Shown piece by piece: positions 2,766 through 30,907 of a stretch of DNA of 56,059 nt. The stretch comes from a virus. The notes beneath the pieces were generated by a model, which saw only the letters and a list, made by a program, of their open reading frames with translations, did not search any database and was not told the DNA's origin. Position 1 is the first letter of the stretch. Every line of letters starts with the position of its first letter. Made by a program: the position numbers and the translations under genes. The stretch is taken from positions 1-56,059 of the IMG/VR virus record IMGVR_UViG_3300033004_000002; one strand, given 5' to 3'.

Positions 2766-3028
2766 CACTGCGCGCCATGAACCGTTGCAATCAACTCGTT
2801 GGCGTCCGCCTGCATGTCCCTGGCGATCTTGCCGGCCTTCTGCTCTGCGGCGAGCAGCTGACCCGACAGCACCTCGCGGTCTTCGTGCGCTCCGATGCCG
2901 GCATCGAGCAGGGCCTTGAGGTCGGACATCATCACCGAGGTGACGGGCGCGTTGCTGTCCATCGCGTGCTGGAAGTCGGCCAGCAGTTCCTTGGCGCGGT
3001 CAGCGAAGGACGGGAGGGTATCTGCCAT
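2765..3028 (-). CDS. 87-aa helical protein
   Basis: The product (MADTLPSFADRAKELLADF...) is almost entirely predicted helix, with heptad-like spacing of Leu/Ala, and ends ELIATVHGAQ. It sits three bases below the stop of the 128-aa coiled-coil protein and is followed by an overlapping gene. Its position directly after TerL suggests a packaging or head accessory role, but nothing in the sequence shows this. Confidence 0.6.
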   Translation of the reverse strand: MADTLPSFADRAKELLADFQHAMDSNAPVTSVMMSDLKALLDAGIGAHEDREVLSGQLLAAEQKAGKIARDMQADANELIATVHGAQ

Positions 3029-3031
3029 CGT

Positions 3032-3418
3032 TCAACCCTCGCCATCTTCCCCCAAAGGGACATTCGACAGCCGCTCGATCACCGCCACGGACTCGTCAAC
3101 ACCCTTGATGATGGCATCGTAATAGCTGTGATGCTTTTCGGCTGCGGCATCACGTTTTCGCTCGGCGACACCGATCTTCGCCGCGATGCCGTCGAGCACG
3201 GTTTCGGTCTTCTTGTGGAAGTCCTGTGCGCGCTCGGTCAATGCCGCCATCTTGCCGGTCAGGCTCATTCGTCGATCCCGTGCGATGGTGGTCAAAACGC
3301 GCGCCGCGACAAGACGGTCTGCGGCGCCATCGATGGCCTCCGCGCTGACGATCGCCACGTCCGCGCTGACAACCTCCTGTGCGATGCCGGTGTGATCGGT
3401 GGCGGGATCAGGCATCAC
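3032..3418 (-). CDS. 128-aa coiled-coil protein after TerL
   Basis: ATG 3418 overlaps the TerL stop (ATGA). The central and C-terminal parts are long amphipathic helices (residues ~45-110) rich in Lys, Glu and Ala, with an acidic C-terminus (PLGEDGEG). It is coupled to TerL and to the next helical protein. I see no enzymatic motif. Coiled-coil packaging or head accessory proteins often follow TerL, but this is only positional evidence. Confidence 0.6.
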   Translation of the reverse strand: MMPDPATDHTGIAQEVVSADVAIVSAEAIDGAADRLVAARVLTTIARDRRMSLTGKMAALTERAQDFHKKTETVLDGIAAKIGVAERKRDAAAEKHHSYYDAIIKGVDESVAVIERLSNVPLGEDGEG

Positions 3419-5037
3419 ATCGTCACCGTCGAATACATCTCGCCGCCCCGTTCGTCCCGCGCCTCGCGGTAGCCGTCGCGGCGGACCGGTTCGTCCTTCG
3501 CCAGCGACTTGATCCAGGGCCGCGACAGGCAGGCGTAGCGCCAGTCGTCCGCCGCATGATCTTCCGCATCGGTGTCGAGATCCTCGGCGCGGCTCTGGTC
3601 GTGCTGCAGCACCGGGATGGTGCGGATCGAGTCGGTACAGGTCGAAAAGCAGTAGATCATCGGCCGTCCCGTCGACCAGTTGATCGAACCGTCGGTTTCG
3701 TTGCGCTGCGCCGATCCGATCAGCCGCGCCCGGAACATGTCCCAGCCGCCCATGGGCCCGGCCTTCTCGCGGTCGCCGGTCTGCCGCGTCACGCGCTTGT
3801 TGTCGGCGGCGATGAACGCGGCGAGCTTGGCCTTGAACAGTTCCTCGTTGATGCGCTCGGCGTTGGAGGGGCCGCCATCCTCGGTGAAAGCGGAAGGGTC
3901 CAGCACGCCGTAGGTCAGCTTGGCGAGGTCATCGCGCTCGCGCGACGCGATGCCCTTGCCGACTTCGTTCGCCGTCAGCTTTCCGCCGACGGCGCCGTAC
4001 CATTCGCGGTATCGGACCAAGGCGCCTCGGGGAAGCGTTTGCGTGCTTCTTCCCGCGTCATTGGACGAAACTGGAAGTGAAAGTCCGTCGGACTGTTGAA
4101 GAACTCCTCCTGCGGACCCGGGAAAGGCCTCCAACCTGAACTCGTCTCCGACGACCGCCCACCATCCGACACTGAACGGGCTGTAAGAACCCCAGTCACC
4201 GCTGCGAAAGCGCAGCCAATGCTCCGGAATAGCGAACGGCGTGACAACATGTTGCTCATTGCTCCATTCCGAGAAGAAGGCGCCTTCGATCGCGGTCCAG
4301 TCGCCTTCGAGCCAGGCCTTGACCAGCTGCGCGGTGCCGACCAGGTAGAGCCGCGAGCGGTAGCCCGGATCGCTCTGCAGCAGGATCTTGTTGTTTTCCA
4401 GCCGCGAGGGGATCACCGCCATCTTGTGCAGCGAACCGTCGGGCAGCTTGCGCGTCAGCACCTTCGGCCGGCGCGGGAACGGATGCAGATGGTAACGGTT
4501 GCGAAGCCAGTGCTGGCCGGCGCCGCCGGGGTTGGCGGTGAGGATCAACTGGACCGGCACGCCGTGGCTGGAGCGCAGCACGCCGAACAGCCGGTCGATC
4601 GGCGCCGAACTCGGATATTGCCCGGCTTCTTCCACCCATGCATCGGTGACGTTGCGACCCTGGTACTCGTTGGCGTCCTGCACGCTCTCCAGATACTTGA
4701 ACCGGACTTTGCCGCCGTTCGGCATGATCCAGCCCTTGTTCTCGATGTAGCGCCCACCTAGCGGGCCGTAGATTTCCTTCGACCGGTCGATCGCATCTTC
4801 CGCCGAGGTCGTGGTGCGGCGGAACATGATCGCGTTGAAGGCCGTGCCGTATCGCTTTTCCTTCAGCGCCCACTTGCCGAGCACGCCATCGGTCTTGCCG
4901 CCGCCGCGGGCGCCGCCGAAGAACACTTCCGGAAACGGACAGCAGCAGAGATCGTCCTGCGGGCCTTCCTGCGGCGACCAGGAGCGGTCCTGGTCATGGG
5001 CGACATGCGCGCTGGTCCGCGGCGCGACGACATTCAT
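3415..5037 (-). CDS. terL: Terminase large subunit
   Basis: The 540-aa product is the ATPase-nuclease that pumps DNA into the prohead. Walker A is GGARGGGKT (residues 41-49), the Walker B/acidic segment is TDAWVEEAG (131-139), and a TANPGG coupling motif follows near 165. The nuclease half begins near GDWGSYSPFSVGWW (~280). Length is normal for the family. A short Ser/Gly/Gln-rich insertion around residues 305-335 inside the nuclease half may be a surface loop. The TerS gene lies just upstream on the same strand with an 87-aa protein between, and the portal lies further along the same operon on the circle. Confidence 0.95.
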   Translation of the reverse strand: MNVVAPRTSAHVAHDQDRSWSPQEGPQDDLCCCPFPEVFFGGARGGGKTDGVLGKWALKEKRYGTAFNAIMFRRTTTSAEDAIDRSKEIYGPLGGRYIENKGWIMPNGGKVRFKYLESVQDANEYQGRNVTDAWVEEAGQYPSSAPIDRLFGVLRSSHGVPVQLILTANPGGAGQHWLRNRYHLHPFPRRPKVLTRKLPDGSLHKMAVIPSRLENNKILLQSDPGYRSRLYLVGTAQLVKAWLEGDWTAIEGAFFSEWSNEQHVVTPFAIPEHWLRFRSGDWGSYSPFSVGWWAVVGDEFRLEAFPGSAGGVLQQSDGLSLPVSSNDAGRSTQTLPRGALVRYREWYGAVGGKLTANEVGKGIASRERDDLAKLTYGVLDPSAFTEDGGPSNAERINEELFKAKLAAFIAADNKRVTRQTGDREKAGPMGGWDMFRARLIGSAQRNETDGSINWSTGRPMIYCFSTCTDSIRTIPVLQHDQSRAEDLDTDAEDHAADDWRYACLSRPWIKSLAKDEPVRRDGYREARDERGGEMYSTVTM

Positions 5038-5046
5038 GCGAATCCG

Positions 5047-5310
5047 CTAATGCCGGCCGTGAAGACCATATCCCATCTGCACAGAGAAGCGCGGCACACC
5101 ATCGATGCAAAGATGCGTGATGCCGTTCTCCAGATCGATCAGCGAAAACCGCTCGATCTCAACACCGCACTCTCGGAACCGATGAATAGCGGCTTCGATC
5201 GCTTGGATTCGCGCCTCTCGCGCCTGGCGCACAAGGTCGACCGTCAGGCTATGAAAGACCTTTGAGTCAATGACCCCAGGCTCTTCATAAAATCTAGTCG
5301 GCACCTGCAC
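5047..5310 (-). CDS. 87-aa protein between TerS and TerL
   Basis: The frame starts at ATG 5310, inside the last codons of TerS (overlap of 17 bases), and ends 9 bases before TerL. The N-terminal half is helical (residues ~18-48, REARIQAIEAAIHRF) and the C-terminal half looks like a small beta sheet (SLIDLENGITHLCIDGVPRF). No family recognised. Its place inside the terminase pair suggests a packaging accessory. Confidence 0.6.
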   Translation of the reverse strand: MQVPTRFYEEPGVIDSKVFHSLTVDLVRQAREARIQAIEAAIHRFRECGVEIERFSLIDLENGITHLCIDGVPRFSVQMGYGLHGRH

Positions 5311-5743
5311 GCTGCGCCTCCCATTCGGATTCCGACATCGGCTTTTCCGAGATCAGGTAGACCGAGGCCGGGTTGTTGCCGGTGGGATCTGTCAGCGCGG
5401 TCTTGGTCACCGCCTTGAAGCCGTGCATGTCGCGGAGCTGGGCGAGCGCGCCAAGCCGATGCGGCCAATCCAGCACGACGCGGCGGCCGGGAAACTCCGA
5501 ACCATCGCCATAAGCGATTGCCGAAAGCGCCGTCTCGATCTGATCGCGCTTTTCACGAACCACGTCTTCGCTGGTCGCGACCAGTTCGGCGATGCGCGCC
5601 TGCACGGCTTTGTTGCGCTCAAGCTTGGTAGCAACGCCAGACGTCGGCTTAAGCCCGATCGCCTTCGCTGCCGCGCGCGGCGGAATCAAGATCGCGCGAA
5701 GACGCGAATACCGTTCGTGGTTCTCGTTGGTCAGGACTGGCAC
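5294..5743 (-). CDS. terS: Terminase small subunit (probable)
   Basis: I start it at GTG 5743, giving MPVLTNENHERYSRL, the usual opening of small terminases, and 149 aa. An N-terminal helix-turn-helix-like region (residues ~19-50, PRAAAKAIGLKPTSGVATKL) is followed by a long helix (oligomerisation) and a C-terminal tail that would contact TerL. The frame stays open upstream, but that part has no TerS character. It would recognise the packaging start site. It is the first gene of the late block, downstream of element R1 and terminator T1. Confidence 0.75.
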   Translation of the reverse strand: MPVLTNENHERYSRLRAILIPPRAAAKAIGLKPTSGVATKLERNKAVQARIAELVATSEDVVREKRDQIETALSAIAYGDGSEFPGRRVVLDWPHRLGALAQLRDMHGFKAVTKTALTDPTGNNPASVYLISEKPMSESEWEAQRAGAD

Positions 5744-5912
5744 AAGGTGATTCCAAAAGATTCCAACTTGTTCATGTTCCAAAAGATCGCCGCTCGCGCC
5801 GGGGAATGCCGGGATGGATGGACCGACACGAGCGGCAGTCAAAGGGAGGAAACGCCCTGAGAGGGCAGCGATAGCCGCAAGGTGACTACCGCATACCCTA
5901 TGCAAACGAAAA

Positions 5913-5934
5913 AGCCCGGCACTGAGGCCGGGCT
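5913..5934 (-). terminator. Intrinsic terminator T1
   Basis: An 8-bp stem AGCCCGGC/GCCGGGCT with a 6-base loop. Read on the minus strand it is followed by a run of T (TTTTTC). It lies between element R1 and the first late gene, so late transcripts started at or above R1 would have to read through it. T2 (6029-6050) has the same stem. Confidence 0.8.
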
Positions 5935-5945
5935 CTTGAAGATAT

Positions 5946-5992
5946 GGGGACAATGACCAGCGGAATTACATGGGACACCTGTCAGGTTATTG
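5946..5992 (-). repeat. Intergenic element R1 (before the late operon)
   Basis: A 47-nt element read on the minus strand: CAATAACCTGACAGG..., a 24-base centre, ...CATTGTCCCC. It contains the palindrome ACCTGACAGGT. It sits between terminators T2 and T1, directly after the NusG-paralogue gene and ahead of TerS. Five other copies (R2-R6) share the ends and the spacing. Its centre folds less well than those of R2-R4. Confidence 0.85.
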
Positions 5993-6028
5993 AGCGGTCT
6001 TTGCTCGGCTCTCTCCTTAAAAGAGAAA

Positions 6029-6050
6029 AGCCCGGCGCGAAGGCCGGGCT
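6029..6050. terminator. Intrinsic terminator T2 (bidirectional)
   Basis: An 8-bp stem AGCCCGGC/GCCGGGCT around GCGAAG, with T-rich sequence on the minus strand (TTTTCTCTTTT) and TTTATGC on the plus strand. It ends the early-left transcript after the NusG paralogue. It is nearly identical to T1. The remaining bases of the 5744-6211 gap show no gene to me. Confidence 0.8.
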
Positions 6051-6211
6051 TTATGCTTTGGAAGGCCGCCTATCCGCTGCAGCCGCTCCTCATTGCCGCG
6101 CCTGTCGGATAGCGCGCTCTGGGTATCTCAGGAATCGTTCTAATGGGCCAATCTCTTGGCCCTTCCGCCGGGCGCTTCGGCCCGTCTCCGCGTTGTCACG
6201 GGTGTAACCCG

Positions 6212-6790
6212 CTATACCGCTTCGATCTGGTCCTCATTCAAGTGCAGCAGGACCTGACGCGTCAATATCTCGATTAGAATGGTGATTCGGTAGCGCGGGT
6301 CAAGCCGCTCAATGCGACCTTCCCACATGTCGAACGGGCCGCCGATCAAGCGCACCTTCTGGTCGACCCTGAATTTGCGCTCCTCGGGCAGTCCGTTGCG
6401 CCTGGCTTCGAACCTGCGAACGTCTGCCATGACGCTGAGCGAGATTTTCAGTGCTTCCGGGCCTTGCTTGCCGCAGTATTTAACGAAGCCTCCGATGCCA
6501 TCCGCCGCATCCTTGAGCCTAGCGATATCGGCGTCGAAGTCCGGAATAAACATCGCGCCGGGAAAGATCGGGACCGTCCTCGACAAGCGACGGTTCCATG
6601 CACCCTTGATCGTCCGTTTTTCCTTCGGCACATAGGCCGAGATGCCGTGCTGATGCAGCTGCCGCTCGGCCTTCAGGTCATAGTTCGGATGCAGCCGCAG
6701 CAGGTACCACAGTTTCGGCAGCGGTGTTGCGATAACAGGCCCTTGGACGCACGCGACAAAATCCCTGGTTTCGTAAAGCGCTGCTGTCAT
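6212..6790 (-). CDS. NusG/RfaH-family transcription antitermination protein
   Basis: The 192-aa product has the NusG plan: an N-terminal NGN domain from WYLLRLHPNYD (28-38) to ~130, including FPGAMFIPD (76-84), and a C-terminal KOW domain (about 142-190, RVDQKVRLIGGPFDMWEGRI). NusG-type proteins bind RNA polymerase over the clamp and either couple it to the ribosome/Rho or, like RfaH, load at a specific DNA hairpin and suppress termination. It is the last gene of the early-left block, just before T2, R1, T1 and the late genes. That is the position of late antiterminators such as lambda Q, so I infer a late-gene regulator. The N-terminal ~25 residues precede the domain and may include an alternative start. 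Confidence 0.85.
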   Translation of the reverse strand: MTAALYETRDFVACVQGPVIATPLPKLWYLLRLHPNYDLKAERQLHQHGISAYVPKEKRTIKGAWNRRLSRTVPIFPGAMFIPDFDADIARLKDAADGIGGFVKYCGKQGPEALKISLSVMADVRRFEARRNGLPEERKFRVDQKVRLIGGPFDMWEGRIERLDPRYRITILIEILTRQVLLHLNEDQIEAV

Positions 6791-9383: not shown

Positions 9384-9430
9384 GGGGACAATGACCGGGG
9401 TCGCCTGTGGCGGCCCCTGTCAGGTTATTA
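9384..9430 (-). repeat. Intergenic element R2 (before the Myb-like gene)
   Basis: Read on the minus strand: AATAACCTGACAGG, centre, CATTGTCCCC. The centre folds as a 9-bp stem with one G-T pair (GGGGCCGCC/GGCGACCCC around ACA). It lies 39 bases above the start of the Myb-like gene and follows the DUF2303 stop. Confidence 0.85.
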
Positions 9431-10651: not shown

Positions 10652-10698
10652 GGGGACAATGTCCAGCGCCGTGCGCTGGGACACCTGTCAGGTTATTG
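10652..10698 (-). repeat. Intergenic element R3
   Basis: Minus-strand reading CAATAACCTGACAGGTGTCC, then CAGCGC-ACGG-CGCTG as a central hairpin, then CATTGTCCCC. It shares ends and spacing with R1 but has an unrelated, self-complementary centre. It lies 27 bases above the ATG at 10624. Confidence 0.85.
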
Positions 10699-11959: not shown

Positions 11960-12159
11960 GCTGTCACCCCATCCGGTTCACACACAGGCGTCCCCTTCCC
12001 CTCGCCCCTCTCCCCGTCCCGCCAGAACTCCACCCCATGCACGCGGCCCTCGCGTCCAAACGGATGCAGCGTGACCTTGATGGTGCGGCAGCCGCGCAGG
12101 CATTCGCGCTCGGTCTTGTGCACCATGCGATTGCCGAGCTTGGGCCAACGATGGTTCAT
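11956..12159 (-). CDS. 67-aa basic hypothetical protein
   Basis: Coupled by ATGA overlaps to the DUF5131 gene and the ASCH gene. It has MVHKTERECLRGCRTIKVTL near the N-terminus (two Cys) and a Gly/Arg/Glu-rich second half. No family recognised. Confidence 0.55.
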   Translation of the reverse strand: MNHRWPKLGNRMVHKTERECLRGCRTIKVTLHPFGREGRVHGVEFWRDGERGEGKGTPVCEPDGVTA

Positions 12160-13292
12160 GGGCGGCGCTCCGGCATCGCGTTGTGTTCGACGTCGTCGAG
12201 CAGGCGGCCGGCGCGGGCCTTGCCGACGCGCTCGACGAACGCCGCACCGGCCTCCGGGTAAAGCTCATCGGCCCGCGCGACATGCGGATAAGCCTTGATC
12301 GCCTGCCACCCAGAACGCGGATTTCCCTTGGCCTGCTCCGGCGTCGACGGCGCCCATTCGCCCCATTGCTTGAAGAAGAAGGGCACGCCGGCAGCCTGGC
12401 ACTGGTCGCGCAGCGATCGGTCCCAATCGACATGCATCGGCCGCGCCCTCGGGCCGCTCTCGCCGCCGACGATCACCCAGTCGAGGCGCGGGCCGCAGTT
12501 CGTGGACCAAACGGAATGACTCCCGGTGCCGTCTGCCCGGCGATGTGACCAAGTCCCATCCTCATGAAGATGTTCACGCCGATCACTCCCAGTGAGAACG
12601 TTATATCTCTCCCGAACTGTTTTCCGGTCTGGTACGAAGCCTCGCATTGCCCAGGGAATCGCCGTCAAGTCGATCGGCCCCAGCAGCGGCTCGCCGCTGA
12701 TGAACCGCACCGCTGCTGGCGTCTGCAGCAGCAGCGGAATCCGTTCGTCGGCCTCCTGCTGCCGCTCGGCAGATACACCGAGCCAGACGTTCGGCAGCGG
12801 CCAATTCACTTGCCAGTCGCCGCCATGGTTGATCTTGCTGCCTTCGGGCGTGCCCAGCATTGACCAGATATGGCCGTTGATCGTGTGACGGCTCGTCCTG
12901 ACGCAATAATCCCGCATCCTTCGCGCCCGCTTCGTCAGCACCTGAAACGTATGCTGCGGGCACAACGCCATCACCGCGAAGACGCGATCGATCCATGCAT
13001 CGGGACAATCCTCGTGGAACAGGTCGCTCATCGAGTTGACAAAATACGTGGTCGGTTTCTTCCGCTTCAGCGGCTGCAGCAGCGTTGCTTCCGGTGCCTG
13101 CACCAGCTTTCCGGTCCACAACGCGTTGCCGTTGACGACGCGAGTGGTGCCGTCATAGCGGGAGATGCCCATGGCCTCGTTGCGGGCTGCAGTCTTCATG
13201 GCATAGCAGTTGGTGCAGCCGGGGGGGACGATGGAGCAGCCGACGATGGGATTCCAGACGTGTGACGTCCATTCGATCGAGGTTTTGCTCAT
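12156..13292 (-). CDS. DUF5131 (phage Gp37/Gp68) family protein
   Basis: The 378-aa product begins MSKTSIEWTSHVWNPIVGCS, the family opening, with a conserved Cys triplet C19, C26 and C29 (C-x6-C-xx-C). Those Cys suggest a bound metal or Fe-S cluster, as in radical-SAM-like proteins. Later family motifs are NSMSDLFHE (~86-94), VLTKRARRM, LPNVWLGVS (~163-171), VIVGGESGPRARPM (~274-287) and PFFFKQWGEW (~305-314). The family is widespread in phages and plasmids; its reaction is not established. It is coupled to both neighbours. I start at ATG 13292, overlapping the upstream stop. Confidence 0.85.
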   Translation of the reverse strand: MSKTSIEWTSHVWNPIVGCSIVPPGCTNCYAMKTAARNEAMGISRYDGTTRVVNGNALWTGKLVQAPEATLLQPLKRKKPTTYFVNSMSDLFHEDCPDAWIDRVFAVMALCPQHTFQVLTKRARRMRDYCVRTSRHTINGHIWSMLGTPEGSKINHGGDWQVNWPLPNVWLGVSAERQQEADERIPLLLQTPAAVRFISGEPLLGPIDLTAIPWAMRGFVPDRKTVRERYNVLTGSDRREHLHEDGTWSHRRADGTGSHSVWSTNCGPRLDWVIVGGESGPRARPMHVDWDRSLRDQCQAAGVPFFFKQWGEWAPSTPEQAKGNPRSGWQAIKAYPHVARADELYPEAGAAFVERVGKARAGRLLDDVEHNAMPERRP

Positions 13293-13471
13293 GTCGGCAC
13301 CCCGCAATCCGGACACCCATGCAGCCACACCTCGGCAATCTTGCGGACGTGCCAGCCCTCGCGCTTCATCATCGCGCGGGCCTCGTCGAAATCCCTGGTC
13401 CTGGTGTCAAGGACTTCATCGCAGCTGTCGCATTCGATGTGGATGATGCCGCCTTGCTGTCGATCGATCAT
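13289..13471 (-). CDS. 60-aa zinc-ribbon-like protein
   Basis: Starts at ATG 13471, overlapping the stop of the membrane protein gene. IECDSCDEVL near the N-terminus and HGCPDCGVPT at the C-terminus give two CxxC knuckles separated by a helix, a classic small zinc ribbon. Likely protein or nucleic-acid binding; no specific role visible. Confidence 0.65.
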   Translation of the reverse strand: MIDRQQGGIIHIECDSCDEVLDTRTRDFDEARAMMKREGWHVRKIAEVWLHGCPDCGVPT

Positions 13472-13755
13472 CAGATGTACCCCTTGACGATCCATCCGAT
13501 TGCAACGGCTATAAGAGGAACAAGCAGCGGATAGGTGATCGCGTCCCATGTCTCATCATCCTTCTGTGGAATCTGCTGATGGCAGAGCAGAGAGACAACG
13601 AGCGAAACCGCAGTCGCCTGCGCGATCGATAGCGGCGGCGCATGGAAAATCGGCACCATGAACCATGACCAGAGCACGCTCAGAGCCCAGCCACGCAAGA
13701 GCGTCAAACCACCGATGACGGCGCCAACTATAACGGCTGATATGATGACGATCAT
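13471..13755 (-). CDS. 94-aa membrane protein
   Basis: Three hydrophobic stretches: residues 2-20 (IVIISAVIVGAVIGGLTLL), ~26-55 and ~74-92 (PLLVPLIAVAIGWIVKGYI), with a polar loop around 60-70 (QIPQKDDETWD). A small inner-membrane protein in the early operon; function unknown. The ATG follows the TAG of the phosphatase gene directly. Confidence 0.6.
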   Translation of the reverse strand: MIVIISAVIVGAVIGGLTLLRGWALSVLWSWFMVPIFHAPPLSIAQATAVSLVVSLLCHQQIPQKDDETWDAITYPLLVPLIAVAIGWIVKGYI

Positions 13756-14205
13756 CTAGAAGTCACCTTCAGCAACTTGCGCACACGGCACCCCCGCCGC
13801 CCGCCAAGCCTTAACCACCCGCGATCGATCATCAAAAACAACCACCGGCTCAAAGCCGTCGGCGCGGACCTGTTCGAGCAGAACGATCTTCAGCACGTCG
13901 TCGTCGCGATGATCGCCGTCCGGGCGCATGTAGAGCCGCAGCGGATAGCGACCGGTATAGGCGCCGTGATCGGACAGCCATTGCGCGGTCTTCTCCCTGC
14001 AGCGCTCCGCGCGGCCCGATACGAAGACGGTCACCAGCTCGCGATCGAGGGCGCGCAGCACGCGGATCATGTGCGGGATCGGCTTGTCGTCGTGACAGAG
14101 ATCGAAATAGGCATCCCATTGCTTGGGTGTCTGTTGAATCAGGTGCAGGCGGTGATCGCCGTTGGCGAGGGTACCGTCGATGTCGAAGATCACGCAGGGT
14201 TTCAT
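13756..14205 (-). CDS. HAD-family phosphatase, polynucleotide 3'-phosphatase-like
   Basis: The 149-aa product starts MKPCVIFDIDGTLANGDHR: D8 and D10 are the DxD nucleophile/acid of HAD enzymes. VTVFVSGRAERCREKTAQWL (~59-78) matches motif II and the following helix of the T4 Pnkp-type phosphatase domain, and VVVFDDRSRVVKAWR supplies the distal Asp pair. Length equals one isolated phosphatase domain. Probable substrates are DNA/RNA 3'-phosphates or nucleotides; the family resemblance favours end repair. No kinase domain is attached. Confidence 0.75.
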   Translation of the reverse strand: MKPCVIFDIDGTLANGDHRLHLIQQTPKQWDAYFDLCHDDKPIPHMIRVLRALDRELVTVFVSGRAERCREKTAQWLSDHGAYTGRYPLRLYMRPDGDHRDDDVLKIVLLEQVRADGFEPVVVFDDRSRVVKAWRAAGVPCAQVAEGDF

Positions 14206-17235: not shown

Positions 17236-17281
17236 GGGACAACTGCCGGGGTCGCGCGGGGCGGCCCCTGTCAGGTTATTG
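17236..17281 (-). repeat. Intergenic element R4
   Basis: Minus-strand reading CAATAACCTGACAGG, centre, CAGTTGTCCC. The centre folds (GGGGCCGC/GCGACCCC). The end is the CAGTTGTCC variant also seen in R6. It lies about 135 bases above the membrane-protein gene at 17102. Confidence 0.82.
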
Positions 17282-17555: not shown

Positions 17556-17571
17556 ATTCAAATCCTTTTGG

Positions 17572-17643
17572 CTGGGAAGGCAGGATTCGAACCTGCGACA
17601 AGGCGGTTAACAGCCACCCGCTCTACCTCTGAGCTACATCCCA
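17572..17643 (-). tRNA. tRNA-Asn (GTT anticodon)
   Basis: Minus strand, 72 nt. Acceptor TGGGATG/CTTCCCA (one mismatch), D arm GCTC-AGAGGTA-GAGC, anticodon arm GGTGG-CTGTTAA-CCGCC with anticodon GTT, T arm GCAGG-TTCGAAT-CCTGC. CCA is not encoded. It is the only tRNA I find. It heads the early-left transcript and would read AAC codons. Confidence 0.88.
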
Positions 17644-26222: not shown

Positions 26223-26270
26223 CAGATAACCGAACAGGTCTCACCTCGCACACAGCAGGTCATTGTCCCC
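26223..26270 (+). repeat. Intergenic element R5 (plus-strand copy)
   Basis: Plus-strand reading AGATAACCGAACAGGTCTCA, centre, CATTGTCCCC, with the same 24-base spacing between the conserved blocks as in the other copies. It precedes the gene at 26293. The orientation flips with the gene strand, so the element is directional relative to transcription. Its CGAACAGGTCTCAC block is shared with R6. Confidence 0.82.
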
Positions 26271-28543: not shown

Positions 28544-28720
28544 ATGACTCTCGAAATCCACTGGGGAAAGGTTGCTCGTCATCTCAAGGATGACGCCGAG
28601 CAAATCAGAGAACGCGCGATAACCGCGTTTCACGGGGACATCGCTACGCAGAAGGAAATGCAGACCCGCGCCGCGATCCTGGAATCGTTGGCGAACGCAC
28701 TTTGGTACGGCCTAGAGTGA
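28544..28720 (+). CDS. 58-aa protein coupled to the integrase
   Basis: ATG 28544 follows the previous TGA directly, and its TGA overlaps the integrase GTG. MTLEIHWGKVARHLKDDAEQ, then helical IATQKEMQTRAAILESLANA. It is the gene translationally closest to the integrase and so a second candidate directionality factor. No family evidence. Confidence 0.5.
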   Translation: MTLEIHWGKVARHLKDDAEQIRERAITAFHGDIATQKEMQTRAAILESLANALWYGLE

Positions 28721-30399
28721 AACGCGCCGCGATCTACGCCCGCTTCTCAAGCGACCTACAGTCCGACCGCTCGATCGAGGACCAGGTCACGCTCTGTCAG
28801 GCGAAGGCCGCCCGCGACGGCTTCAAGATCGTGGCGACCTTCTCCGACCGCGCCCGCTCCGGCGCCTCGATCCACGGCCGCGCCGGCATTGCCGAGCTGC
28901 TCGCCGCCGCCAAGGCCGGCCAATTCGACGTCCTGATCGTCGAGGAGCTCGACCGCCTGTCGCGCTCGCAGGCCGACCTTGCCTCGATCTATGACCGGCT
29001 GACTTTCGTCGGCATCGACATCCTGACCGTGCATGGAGGGGCGGGCCGCACCGACCAGATCCAGGTCGGCATCCGCGGCATCGTCGGCGCCCTGTTCCTG
29101 ACCGACCTGGCGCACAAGGTCCGCCGCGGCGCCGCCGGCAATATCCGGCTGGGCAAGCACGCCGGAGGTCTCGCCTATGGCTACGACACCACGCCGGGCC
29201 AGCCAGGCGCGTGGACCATCAACGAGGAACAGGCGGCCATCGTGCGGCGAATCTTCACAGCCTATCTCGCCGGCGAGCGGACGCCGGCAATCGCGCGATC
29301 GCTCAATGCCGATGGCATCAAGCCGCCGCGCGGCAGCTATTGGCAGCCGGGCGCTTTGACCGGATCAAACAACCGCCACAACGGCATCATGGGCAACGAA
29401 ATCTATTGCGGCCGTCTGGTTTGGAATCGCGTGCGCATGATCAAGGATCCGGAGACCGGAAAGCGCGTGTCGCGGCCGAACCCGGAAACCGAGTGGCAGC
29501 GGGCTGAGGTGCCGCATCTGATGATCGTGCCGCCGGAAGTCTTCGACCAGGCCGCGGCGCTGAAGGCCTCCCGCGGCAATCTGGCGCCGACGCACCGCCG
29601 CGCGCCGAAGGCGCTGCTCTCCGGCCTGCTCAAATGCGGCAGCTGCGGCGGCGGCATGTCGATCAAGGGCCGCGACCGCGGCGGCGTGCGCATCGTCTGC
29701 ACCACGTTCCACAATGCCAAGCTTTGCGCCAACAACCGGACCTATTACCTGCATCACGTCGAGGAGACCGTGCTGTCGGGCCTGCGGCGCCACCTGGTCG
29801 ATCCGCGCGCGATCAAGCACTTCCTCAAATGCTACCACGACGAGCGCAAACGGCTGGTAGTCGAGGCGTCCAGGGAGCGGCCGGATCTGGAGCGGCGGCT
29901 TGGCGAGGCCACCCGCAAGCTCGCCAGGCTCACCGAGGCCATGCTTGACAGCGATGCGCCCGTGGCTTCATTCACCACGAGGATCGCCGAGCTCGAGCGG
30001 GAGAAAGCCGAGATCGAGGCCAGGCTCGCGCAAATGTCGGAACCGGTCCGGGTGATCGCCCTTCATCCGGCAGCCCAAGAGCACTATCTCAAGGTCGTGA
30101 ATGATCTCGCCGCGGCGGTTCGGGACCGCGCCGACCGCAGCGCGATGGCAGCGCCGGTCCGGGACCTGGTCGACAGCGTGATCGTGCATCGGACCTTGCC
30201 GGGCGAGCCGATCCGGCTCACGGTCAACGGGCGCCTGGCGGCGCTGATCGGGCAGCCGGTGTTTCCGCAAGGTTCTCTGTCGGGGGTCAAGTTGGTAGCG
30301 GGAGCCCGCTACGGGATAGAACCCCGTGTGGATGTACCTGTTTTTGCTATGGAGTTTTTTGGCGCGCGAAAAATGGGTCGTACGGCCCCGCACCCATAG
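28717..30399 (+). CDS. int: Large serine recombinase (phage integrase)
   Basis: I start it at GTG 28717 (MKRAAIYARFSSDLQ), 560 aa; TTG 28702 would add 5 residues. The catalytic Ser is S11 in YARFSS. The resolvase core spans ~1-150 (VEELDRLSRSQADL, DIQVGIRGIVGA-type helix E region), the recombinase domain ~160-280 (GKHAGGLAYGYDT; NEIYCGRLVWNR), the zinc-ribbon domain ~305-345 (KCGSCGGGMS ... CANN), and a coiled coil ~380-440. Such enzymes integrate phage DNA at a short attB without host factors. It lies at the end of the early-right operon; the 108-base gap after it may hold attP. The C-terminal ~50 residues are unusual in ending antisense to another small frame. Confidence 0.95.
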   Translation: MKRAAIYARFSSDLQSDRSIEDQVTLCQAKAARDGFKIVATFSDRARSGASIHGRAGIAELLAAAKAGQFDVLIVEELDRLSRSQADLASIYDRLTFVGIDILTVHGGAGRTDQIQVGIRGIVGALFLTDLAHKVRRGAAGNIRLGKHAGGLAYGYDTTPGQPGAWTINEEQAAIVRRIFTAYLAGERTPAIARSLNADGIKPPRGSYWQPGALTGSNNRHNGIMGNEIYCGRLVWNRVRMIKDPETGKRVSRPNPETEWQRAEVPHLMIVPPEVFDQAAALKASRGNLAPTHRRAPKALLSGLLKCGSCGGGMSIKGRDRGGVRIVCTTFHNAKLCANNRTYYLHHVEETVLSGLRRHLVDPRAIKHFLKCYHDERKRLVVEASRERPDLERRLGEATRKLARLTEAMLDSDAPVASFTTRIAELEREKAEIEARLAQMSEPVRVIALHPAAQEHYLKVVNDLAAAVRDRADRSAMAAPVRDLVDSVIVHRTLPGEPIRLTVNGRLAALIGQPVFPQGSLSGVKLVAGARYGIEPRVDVPVFAMEFFGARKMGRTAPHP

Positions 30400-30807: not shown

Positions 30808-30861
30808 CGGTCATTCCTTTGATCAACCGGGCATCCGGCCCGGCGCGGAGTTTTCAAGATT

Positions 30862-30907
30862 GCGGACAACTGTCAGCGGTGAGGGGGTGAGACCGGTTCG
30901 GTTATCT
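30862..30907 (-). repeat. Intergenic element R6 (before the Acb2-like gene)
   Basis: Minus-strand reading AGATAACCGAACCGGTCTCA, centre, CAGTTGTCCGC. It shares the CGAAC(A/C)GGTCTCACC block with R5 and the CAGTTGTCC end with R4. It overlaps the stop codon of the 109-aa gene and lies about 55 bases above the Acb2-like ATG. Confidence 0.75.

Follow-up and report, generated by a model that had tools for sequence, protein, structure and literature searches.

The gene order of the lambda Q system is the nearest precedent for the locus described here. In that system (pR'-qut-tR'), the antiterminator gene comes last among the early genes, and a short leader containing a terminator separates it from the late genes. 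From phage HK022 comes the notion of a structured phage leader RNA that acts in cis; this RNA, put, is not known to need a phage protein. We know of no mechanism for the late-gene switching of most alphaproteobacterial phages, and the open-licence literature searched yielded no publication that connects NusG paralogues with alphaR8 RNA and phage late genes.

RfaH, which is associated with the ops element, is a specialised NusG-family paralogue with an alpha-helical autoinhibitory C-terminal domain. To read through the terminator before the first gene, the NusG paralogue LoaP requires a hairpin in the leader RNA (PMC12691694). In the LoaP/dfn system of Bacillus velezensis, the leader has a structured UNCG hairpin and, downstream of it, an intrinsic terminator that immediately precedes the first gene of a long operon; the operons are antibiotic clusters. 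The alphaR8 RNAs have been described as a weak hairpin, the 10-mer UUUCCUCCCU and a terminator, and those of Caulobacter (SisA) regulate in trans through the 10-mer (PMC12559287).

The present locus resembles the lambda arrangement in that the gene of a NusG paralogue lies directly upstream of a leader terminator and the late genes. It differs in that a NusG fold replaces Q, the leader is a known sRNA family, and no recognisable sigma70 promoter is found in the leader. As in LoaP/dfn, a NusG paralogue occurs together with a structured leader hairpin and an intrinsic terminator immediately ahead of the first gene of a long operon, but the genes are phage late genes, the UNCG hairpin is replaced by an alphaR8-family element with a hairpin P whose binding is putative, and the NusG gene is adjacent upstream with a second terminator in between. 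Unlike in HK022, a NusG paralogue is adjacent to the structured leader. LoaP is the nearest tested precedent for the switch proposed below, whose architecture would be like that of LoaP/dfn and whose logic would be like that of lambda Q.

Gene order and terminators

The window, that is, the whole stretch of DNA analysed, is the record of a temperate phage; it is 56,059 bases long and has a terminal repeat of 127 bp. Its features are listed in Table 1. An earlier annotation made from the letters alone (the sequence-only reading) had given the order NusG paralogue, T2, R1, T1 and TerS and had described T2 and T1 as twin terminators. The order was confirmed at the same positions, and the two stems are nearly identical and both terminator-like. 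The parts of the leader that were listed in that reading are all present; the alphaR8 RNA with T0 (5773-5901) and hairpin H (6132-6162) had been overlooked.

Table 1. Positions of the features in the 56,059-base window
Feature	Position	Strand	Basis or remark
NusG paralogue (NGN + KOW), last gene of the leftward early operon	6212-6790	-	Pfam, PHROG, AF2 model
Hairpin H, GGGCCAA-GAGA-TTGGCCC plus ATTAGAACGATTC, directly 3' of the NusG stop	6132-6162	-	
Terminator T2	6027-6052	-	Terminator-like hairpin, not conserved
R1 element, contains ATG-TAA	5948-5990	-	Between T2 and T1, not conserved in the NusG-TerS leader
Terminator T1 with T-tract	about 5905-5936	-	Terminator-like hairpin
ATAGGGTATG motif, consensus ATAGGKTRTG	5892-5901	-	Predicted pairing: S 5' arm or alphaR8 seed end
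Hairpin P (CGGTAG...CTATCG)	5869-5891	-	Compensatory changes in 24 leaders
alphaR8/suhB/mmgR-family RNA (Rfam RF00519)	5773-5873	-	S hairpin 5867-5853, 10-mer UUUCCUCCCU, terminator T0
Terminator T0, 3' end of the alphaR8 element	5781-5837	-	T-tract stops 37 nt ahead of the TerS start
TerS, first late gene, GTG start at 5743	5294-5743	-	phrog_11494 terminase small subunit, 1e-10
TerL	3415-5037	-	Pfam Terminase_3, 3e-5
Serine-type integrase	28702-30399		
R element	9386-9428	-	
R element	10654-10696	-	
R element	17237-17279	-	
R element	26226-26268	+	
R element, degenerate copy	~30860-30905	-	

Among cultured phages, the closest match of the window TerL is that of Pseudanabaena phage Pam5 (57% identity). 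The early region contains two tRNA genes, at 13714-13807 (Phe, ARAGORN only) and 17569-17643 (Asn, ARAGORN and Rfam). Positions 12354-12804, within the gene at 12156-13328 (-), share ~80% DNA identity over ~135 bp with Gordonia/Mycobacterium phages, a cross-phylum match.

A T1-like hairpin is present in 41 of 41 distinct leaders, ending ~35-85 nt ahead of the alphaR8 core. T2 is absent from the NusG-TerS stretch of the relatives G005, L044 and L046; G001 and G002 have T2 and lack R1. T0 adjoins the first late gene, with a gap of 2-6 nt from T-tract to start in many phages, and its sequence is not conserved among the leaders. Because T0 lies directly ahead of the first late gene, any transcript that includes this gene must pass it, unless a promoter overlaps T0. 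The right arm and tail of hairpin H are kept in the six close relatives, and the left arm re-pairs. In L046, a tRNA gene (2931-3004) is inserted between hairpin H and T1.

The window (inside R1), G001 (L045), G002 (L047) and OP596613 (L049) have, between T2 and T1, a start codon with a stop codon immediately after it (ATG-TAA/TAG), possibly a minimal reading frame. It was rejected as a general feature of the leader, as only these among the 41 leaders have one.

The NusG paralogue

The paralogue has 192 aa and matches Pfam PF02357 (NGN; E = 7e-8) and phrog_6386, "transcription antiterminator" (E = 1e-16). Its NGN domain belongs to the NusG/RfaH family by PF02357 and by 33 PDB sequence matches, with NusG closest and RfaH next. 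The AlphaFold2 model (mean pLDDT 86, from an alignment of 16 sequences) resembles NusG and RfaH structures by foldseek. A KOW domain was recognised from predicted beta strands at residues 145-191 and a foldseek match to the NusG C-terminal domain 1nz9; PF00467 was found in the relative L065. Unlike RfaH with its alpha-helical C-terminal domain, the window paralogue has a NusG-like beta C-terminal domain in the model, a fold-switch being beyond the reach of prediction. Relatives were gathered by protein search from NusG, except G005, which was found by its R element first and whose NusG was recognised later. A search of the genome collection with the alignment of close NusG sequences gave no match.

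The alphaR8 element

Between T1 and TerS, the window contains a hairpin, UUUCCUCCCU and a Rho-independent terminator at 5867-5781, which together define alphaR8. The element scored 34.1 bits against RF00519 (E = 6.7e-5), under the gathering score of 41. Relatives at the same position scored 41.4-72.7 bits, over the cut-off (42.5 for G001 (L045) and 41.4 for L046); L044 (35.1 bits) and G003 (36.9 bits) were below it, and the same core is visible in the sequences of G005 and G002. T1, the motif CATAGGGTATG (with variants), hairpin P and a suhB/mmgR-type RNA are present in six of six close relatives. The phage copies are like the rest of the suhB/mmgR family (RF00519; MmgR, SisA-D) in their S hairpin, 10-mer and Rho-independent terminator. 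They differ in having no sigma70-type promoter of their own, in their location between T1 and the terminase gene, and in an extra ATAGGKTRTG strand that is predicted to mask the seed.

In the genus of Bradyrhizobium viridifuturi, 119 of 120 genomes have at least one RF00519 match. The stand-alone chromosomal copies contain hairpin P and a promoter such as TTGCGT/TTGCAC-N17-CATATT. A sigma70-like promoter above the 95% shuffle level was detected in 29 of 31 chromosomal copies, and one of sigma70 type above that level in none of the NusG-linked copies (0/28 and 0/19). The sequence-only reading had held antitermination to be incompatible with a late promoter below T1. No sigma70-type promoter was found there in the 28 NusG-linked leaders; other kinds of promoter are possible.

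One such kind would be a non-sigma70 late promoter between T1 and P, similar to lambda pR' and with TAGGKT as a -10-like element. The alphaR8 RNA, with its end at T0, would then correspond to lambda 6S RNA, the NusG paralogue would act at T0 only, and T1 would insulate. In most leaders, the key -10 positions of TAGGKT are occupied by T, A and T and the motif precedes P at a constant position, and a start at this site would account for a loading signal downstream of T1. However, no -35 element is seen, a transcript begun 6-7 nt past TAGGKT would lack part of the base of P, where the pairs are invariant, and the folding predictions include the ATAGG strand in the RNA structure. This variant, which is compatible with the antitermination switch proposed below, appears rather unlikely.

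The element might also be a phage trans-acting sRNA that reaches host or phage mRNAs via its anti-Shine-Dalgarno 10-mer, located at the boundary for convenience and unrelated to the NusG paralogue. The trans activity of the Caulobacter SisA RNAs via the 10-mer (PMC12559287) agrees with this, as do similar elements that phages carry in the absence of NusG, some of them preceded by a promoter of TTGACA type or neighbouring an integrase. The 10-mer is moreover exact in most NusG-linked copies, although the core search itself favoured intact 10-mers. On the other hand, the NusG-linked copies have no promoter of the chromosomal kind and carry the strand predicted to mask the seed, and a free-standing sRNA gene would not be expected to keep a fixed place between T1 and the terminase gene when the packaging genes are unrelated. 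We give action in trans a minor chance and consider the phage leader copies likely to be cis-acting.

Some phage cores occur without NusG. Those in L066, L104, L113, L128, L158 and L159 have a TTGACA-type promoter directly upstream and are probably phage-borne sRNA genes; in L066 and L113, the core apparently follows a structural gene. In Microcystis phage Mwe-JY08 (L251), the late genes have the core at their end, close to an L-alanyl-D-glutamate peptidase gene, and in Microcystis phage vB_MweS-yong2 (L252) it lies beside an integrase.

Folding of the leader RNA

In 24 leaders, hairpin P showed 12 double-change cells versus 3.9-4.1 in shuffles (0/500), and slid controls were all far lower. 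A closing stem, UAGG/CCUA, that surrounds P and S was predicted by RNAalifold. This stem hardly varies, so covariation argues neither for nor against it. The prediction for the window instead has the ATAGG strand paired with the 5' arm of S. The predicted unpaired probability of the last four seed bases was 0.20 in NusG-linked leaders versus 0.61 in chromosomal copies; in the leaders it rose to 0.51 with the first ten bases shuffled and to 0.95 without the ATAGG strand. According to these predictions, the ATAGGKTRTG strand pairs either with the S 5' arm or with the last part of the sRNA seed and in this way probably keeps the RNA in a fold that acts in cis.

The compensatory changes in P also bear on the proposal that T1 and T0 leak enough for the late genes. 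The NusG paralogue would then be a host-takeover factor, e.g., in competition with host NusG/Rho, and the interval would be an att site or a recombination hot spot. The interval tolerates insertions (T2 and R1 in the window, a tRNA gene in L046), and alphaR8 genes elsewhere adjoin integrases. However, the integrase of the window is 23 kb distant, and the compensatory changes and the invariant order argue for an interval that functions as RNA. We consider leakage at a hot spot improbable.

In many leaders, P holds GCGGTAGCG, which matches nine bases of the Escherichia coli ops element GGCGGTAGCGTG. This recalls RfaH/ops, where the protein is likewise a specialised NusG-family paralogue. The likeness is weak, because the ops-like CGGTAG varies in several leaders while the pairing stays and ops-like bases are also present in chromosomal sRNA genes. 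P itself cannot be NusG-specific, since it is contained in chromosomal alphaR8 genes that have no adjacent NusG. Visual inspection of the P and S hairpins in alignment A2 showed no UNCG tetraloop.

Occurrence in other phages

The order NusG gene, T1, P/alphaR8 RNA, T0 and terminase was found in at least ~40 phage loci, with NusG identity down to ~20%. The association was recovered from both ends, i.e., from the RNA to NusG and from NusG to the RNA. In the RNA-first scan, viral contigs were chosen only by the 15-base alphaR8 core GGGCGTTTCCTCCCT, which gave at least 119 contigs; many are fragments, some are possibly near-duplicates, and the scan favours an intact 10-mer. Among the matches listed for 119 contigs, at least 20 had a same-strand NusG-family ORF ending 111-605 nt upstream, and Pfam NGN was confirmed in 8 of the 10 ORFs tested. 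The ATAGG motif accompanied the core at 21 places among the matches listed. NusG was present at 18 of these; at the remaining three, the upstream sequence is shorter than 460 nt.

In the NusG-first direction, the element was present in all six close relatives. For two other NusG groups, the core was found 139-620 nt downstream on the same strand at 20 of 37 loci (15 new contigs) and in none of the controls. No recognisable alphaR8 core was seen downstream in some NusG relatives (L236, L238, L240, L242 and weak matches).

Dozens of phages from Bradyrhizobium-type bacteria show the arrangement of NusG, leader and packaging gene. The same order is found in the Bradyrhizobium prophages OP596612 and OP596613, whose NusG paralogues show 25-31% identity and whose RNAs score 32.0 and 62.8 bits. 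In the genome collection, the pattern TAGGKTRTGCGGTAGCGCC gave three true loci (two in Bradyrhizobium and one in Tardiphaga, with NusG upstream in two) and three chance matches. The TerL families downstream comprise TerL_ATPase/nuclease, GpA and Terminase_6/3, at least three unrelated terminase types, indicating that the module travels independently of the packaging genes.

R elements

The R element is a 43-bp repeat, AATAACCTGACAGG followed by TTGTCC at fixed spacing, and sits in gaps upstream of genes. Five exact two-box copies were found in the window versus zero for the reversed-pattern control, so the repeat is not due to chance. R elements are also present in G001, G003, G004, G005 and G006; G004 and G006 are fragments, and no NusG was found in them. 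A sigma70, extended -10 or ECF promoter was ruled out by inspection, as there are no hexamers at fixed spacing. A short opposite-strand CDS (MGTM...CQVI) was also ruled out, as the variable bases are not third positions and the starts are not kept.

The sequence-only reading had proposed that R elements with foldable centres are loading sites and that the NusG paralogue thereby controls all R-preceded units, six in number. The presence of R1 in the leader of the window and G003 would fit this, as would the location of R copies directly upstream of start codons. However, within the close group these are the only two NusG-TerS leaders with R1; it is missing from those of G005, which has two R copies elsewhere, L044, L046, G001 and G002. 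The suggested check of whether phages with this NusG carry R elements gave 0 of 16 further phages with the NusG/alphaR8 module, in the sequence covered, and G002 has a NusG paralogue and no R. Loading at R1 is thus highly improbable, and the tie of one regulator to six units is not supported. Judged from these sequences, R elements are a separate feature of the window's own close group, unlinked to NusG, because R1 is missing from the leaders of close relatives and no R was found in the 16 further phages.

A candidate late switch

We propose a NusG-family late antitermination switch, formed by the paralogue and the structured leader at the early/late boundary, and consider it probable on balance. 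Leftward early transcription would stop at T1, directly after the NusG gene. A polymerase passing T1 would meet T0 directly ahead of TerS, with P and the alphaR8 RNA in between. As the product of the last early gene, the NusG paralogue is a natural candidate for read-through of T0. Once accumulated, it would bind RNA polymerase at a signal in the leader and render it resistant to T0 (and T1), and the resistant polymerase would transcribe TerS, TerL and the late operon. The loading signal would most likely be the P/S RNA or the ops-like GCGGTAG in P, with hairpin H as second choice. A loading site downstream of T1 leaves read-through of T1 unexplained unless transcription starts between T1 and P, where TAGGKT may serve as the -10 element. 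The earlier idea that a NusG paralogue replaces Q at this boundary is strongly supported by comparison, as the order of NusG gene, terminators and terminase is repeated in ~40 loci; the role given to the R elements is not supported. We infer that the paralogue acts as the antiterminator and would be necessary for late transcription.

A broader proposal, which we put forward tentatively as possible rather than probable, is that phage NusG paralogues load on alphaR8/suhB-family RNA and form a second RNA-recognising class of NusG proteins after LoaP. The alphaR8 sRNAs that are widespread in Alphaproteobacteria and the phage leaders would then share an origin, one having been domesticated from the other.

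The soybean strains Bradyrhizobium diazoefficiens USDA 122 and Bradyrhizobium elkanii USDA 76, lysogens of the phages OP596612 and OP596613, spontaneously produce such phages (PMC10127595). If the proposed switch is correct, it would provide a concrete and widespread candidate for late switching in alphaproteobacterial phages, made up of two terminators and of a protein and an RNA that can both be named. It would also place in a cis-acting context a bacterial sRNA family otherwise described only as trans-acting, and may represent a second case of an RNA-guided NusG paralogue.
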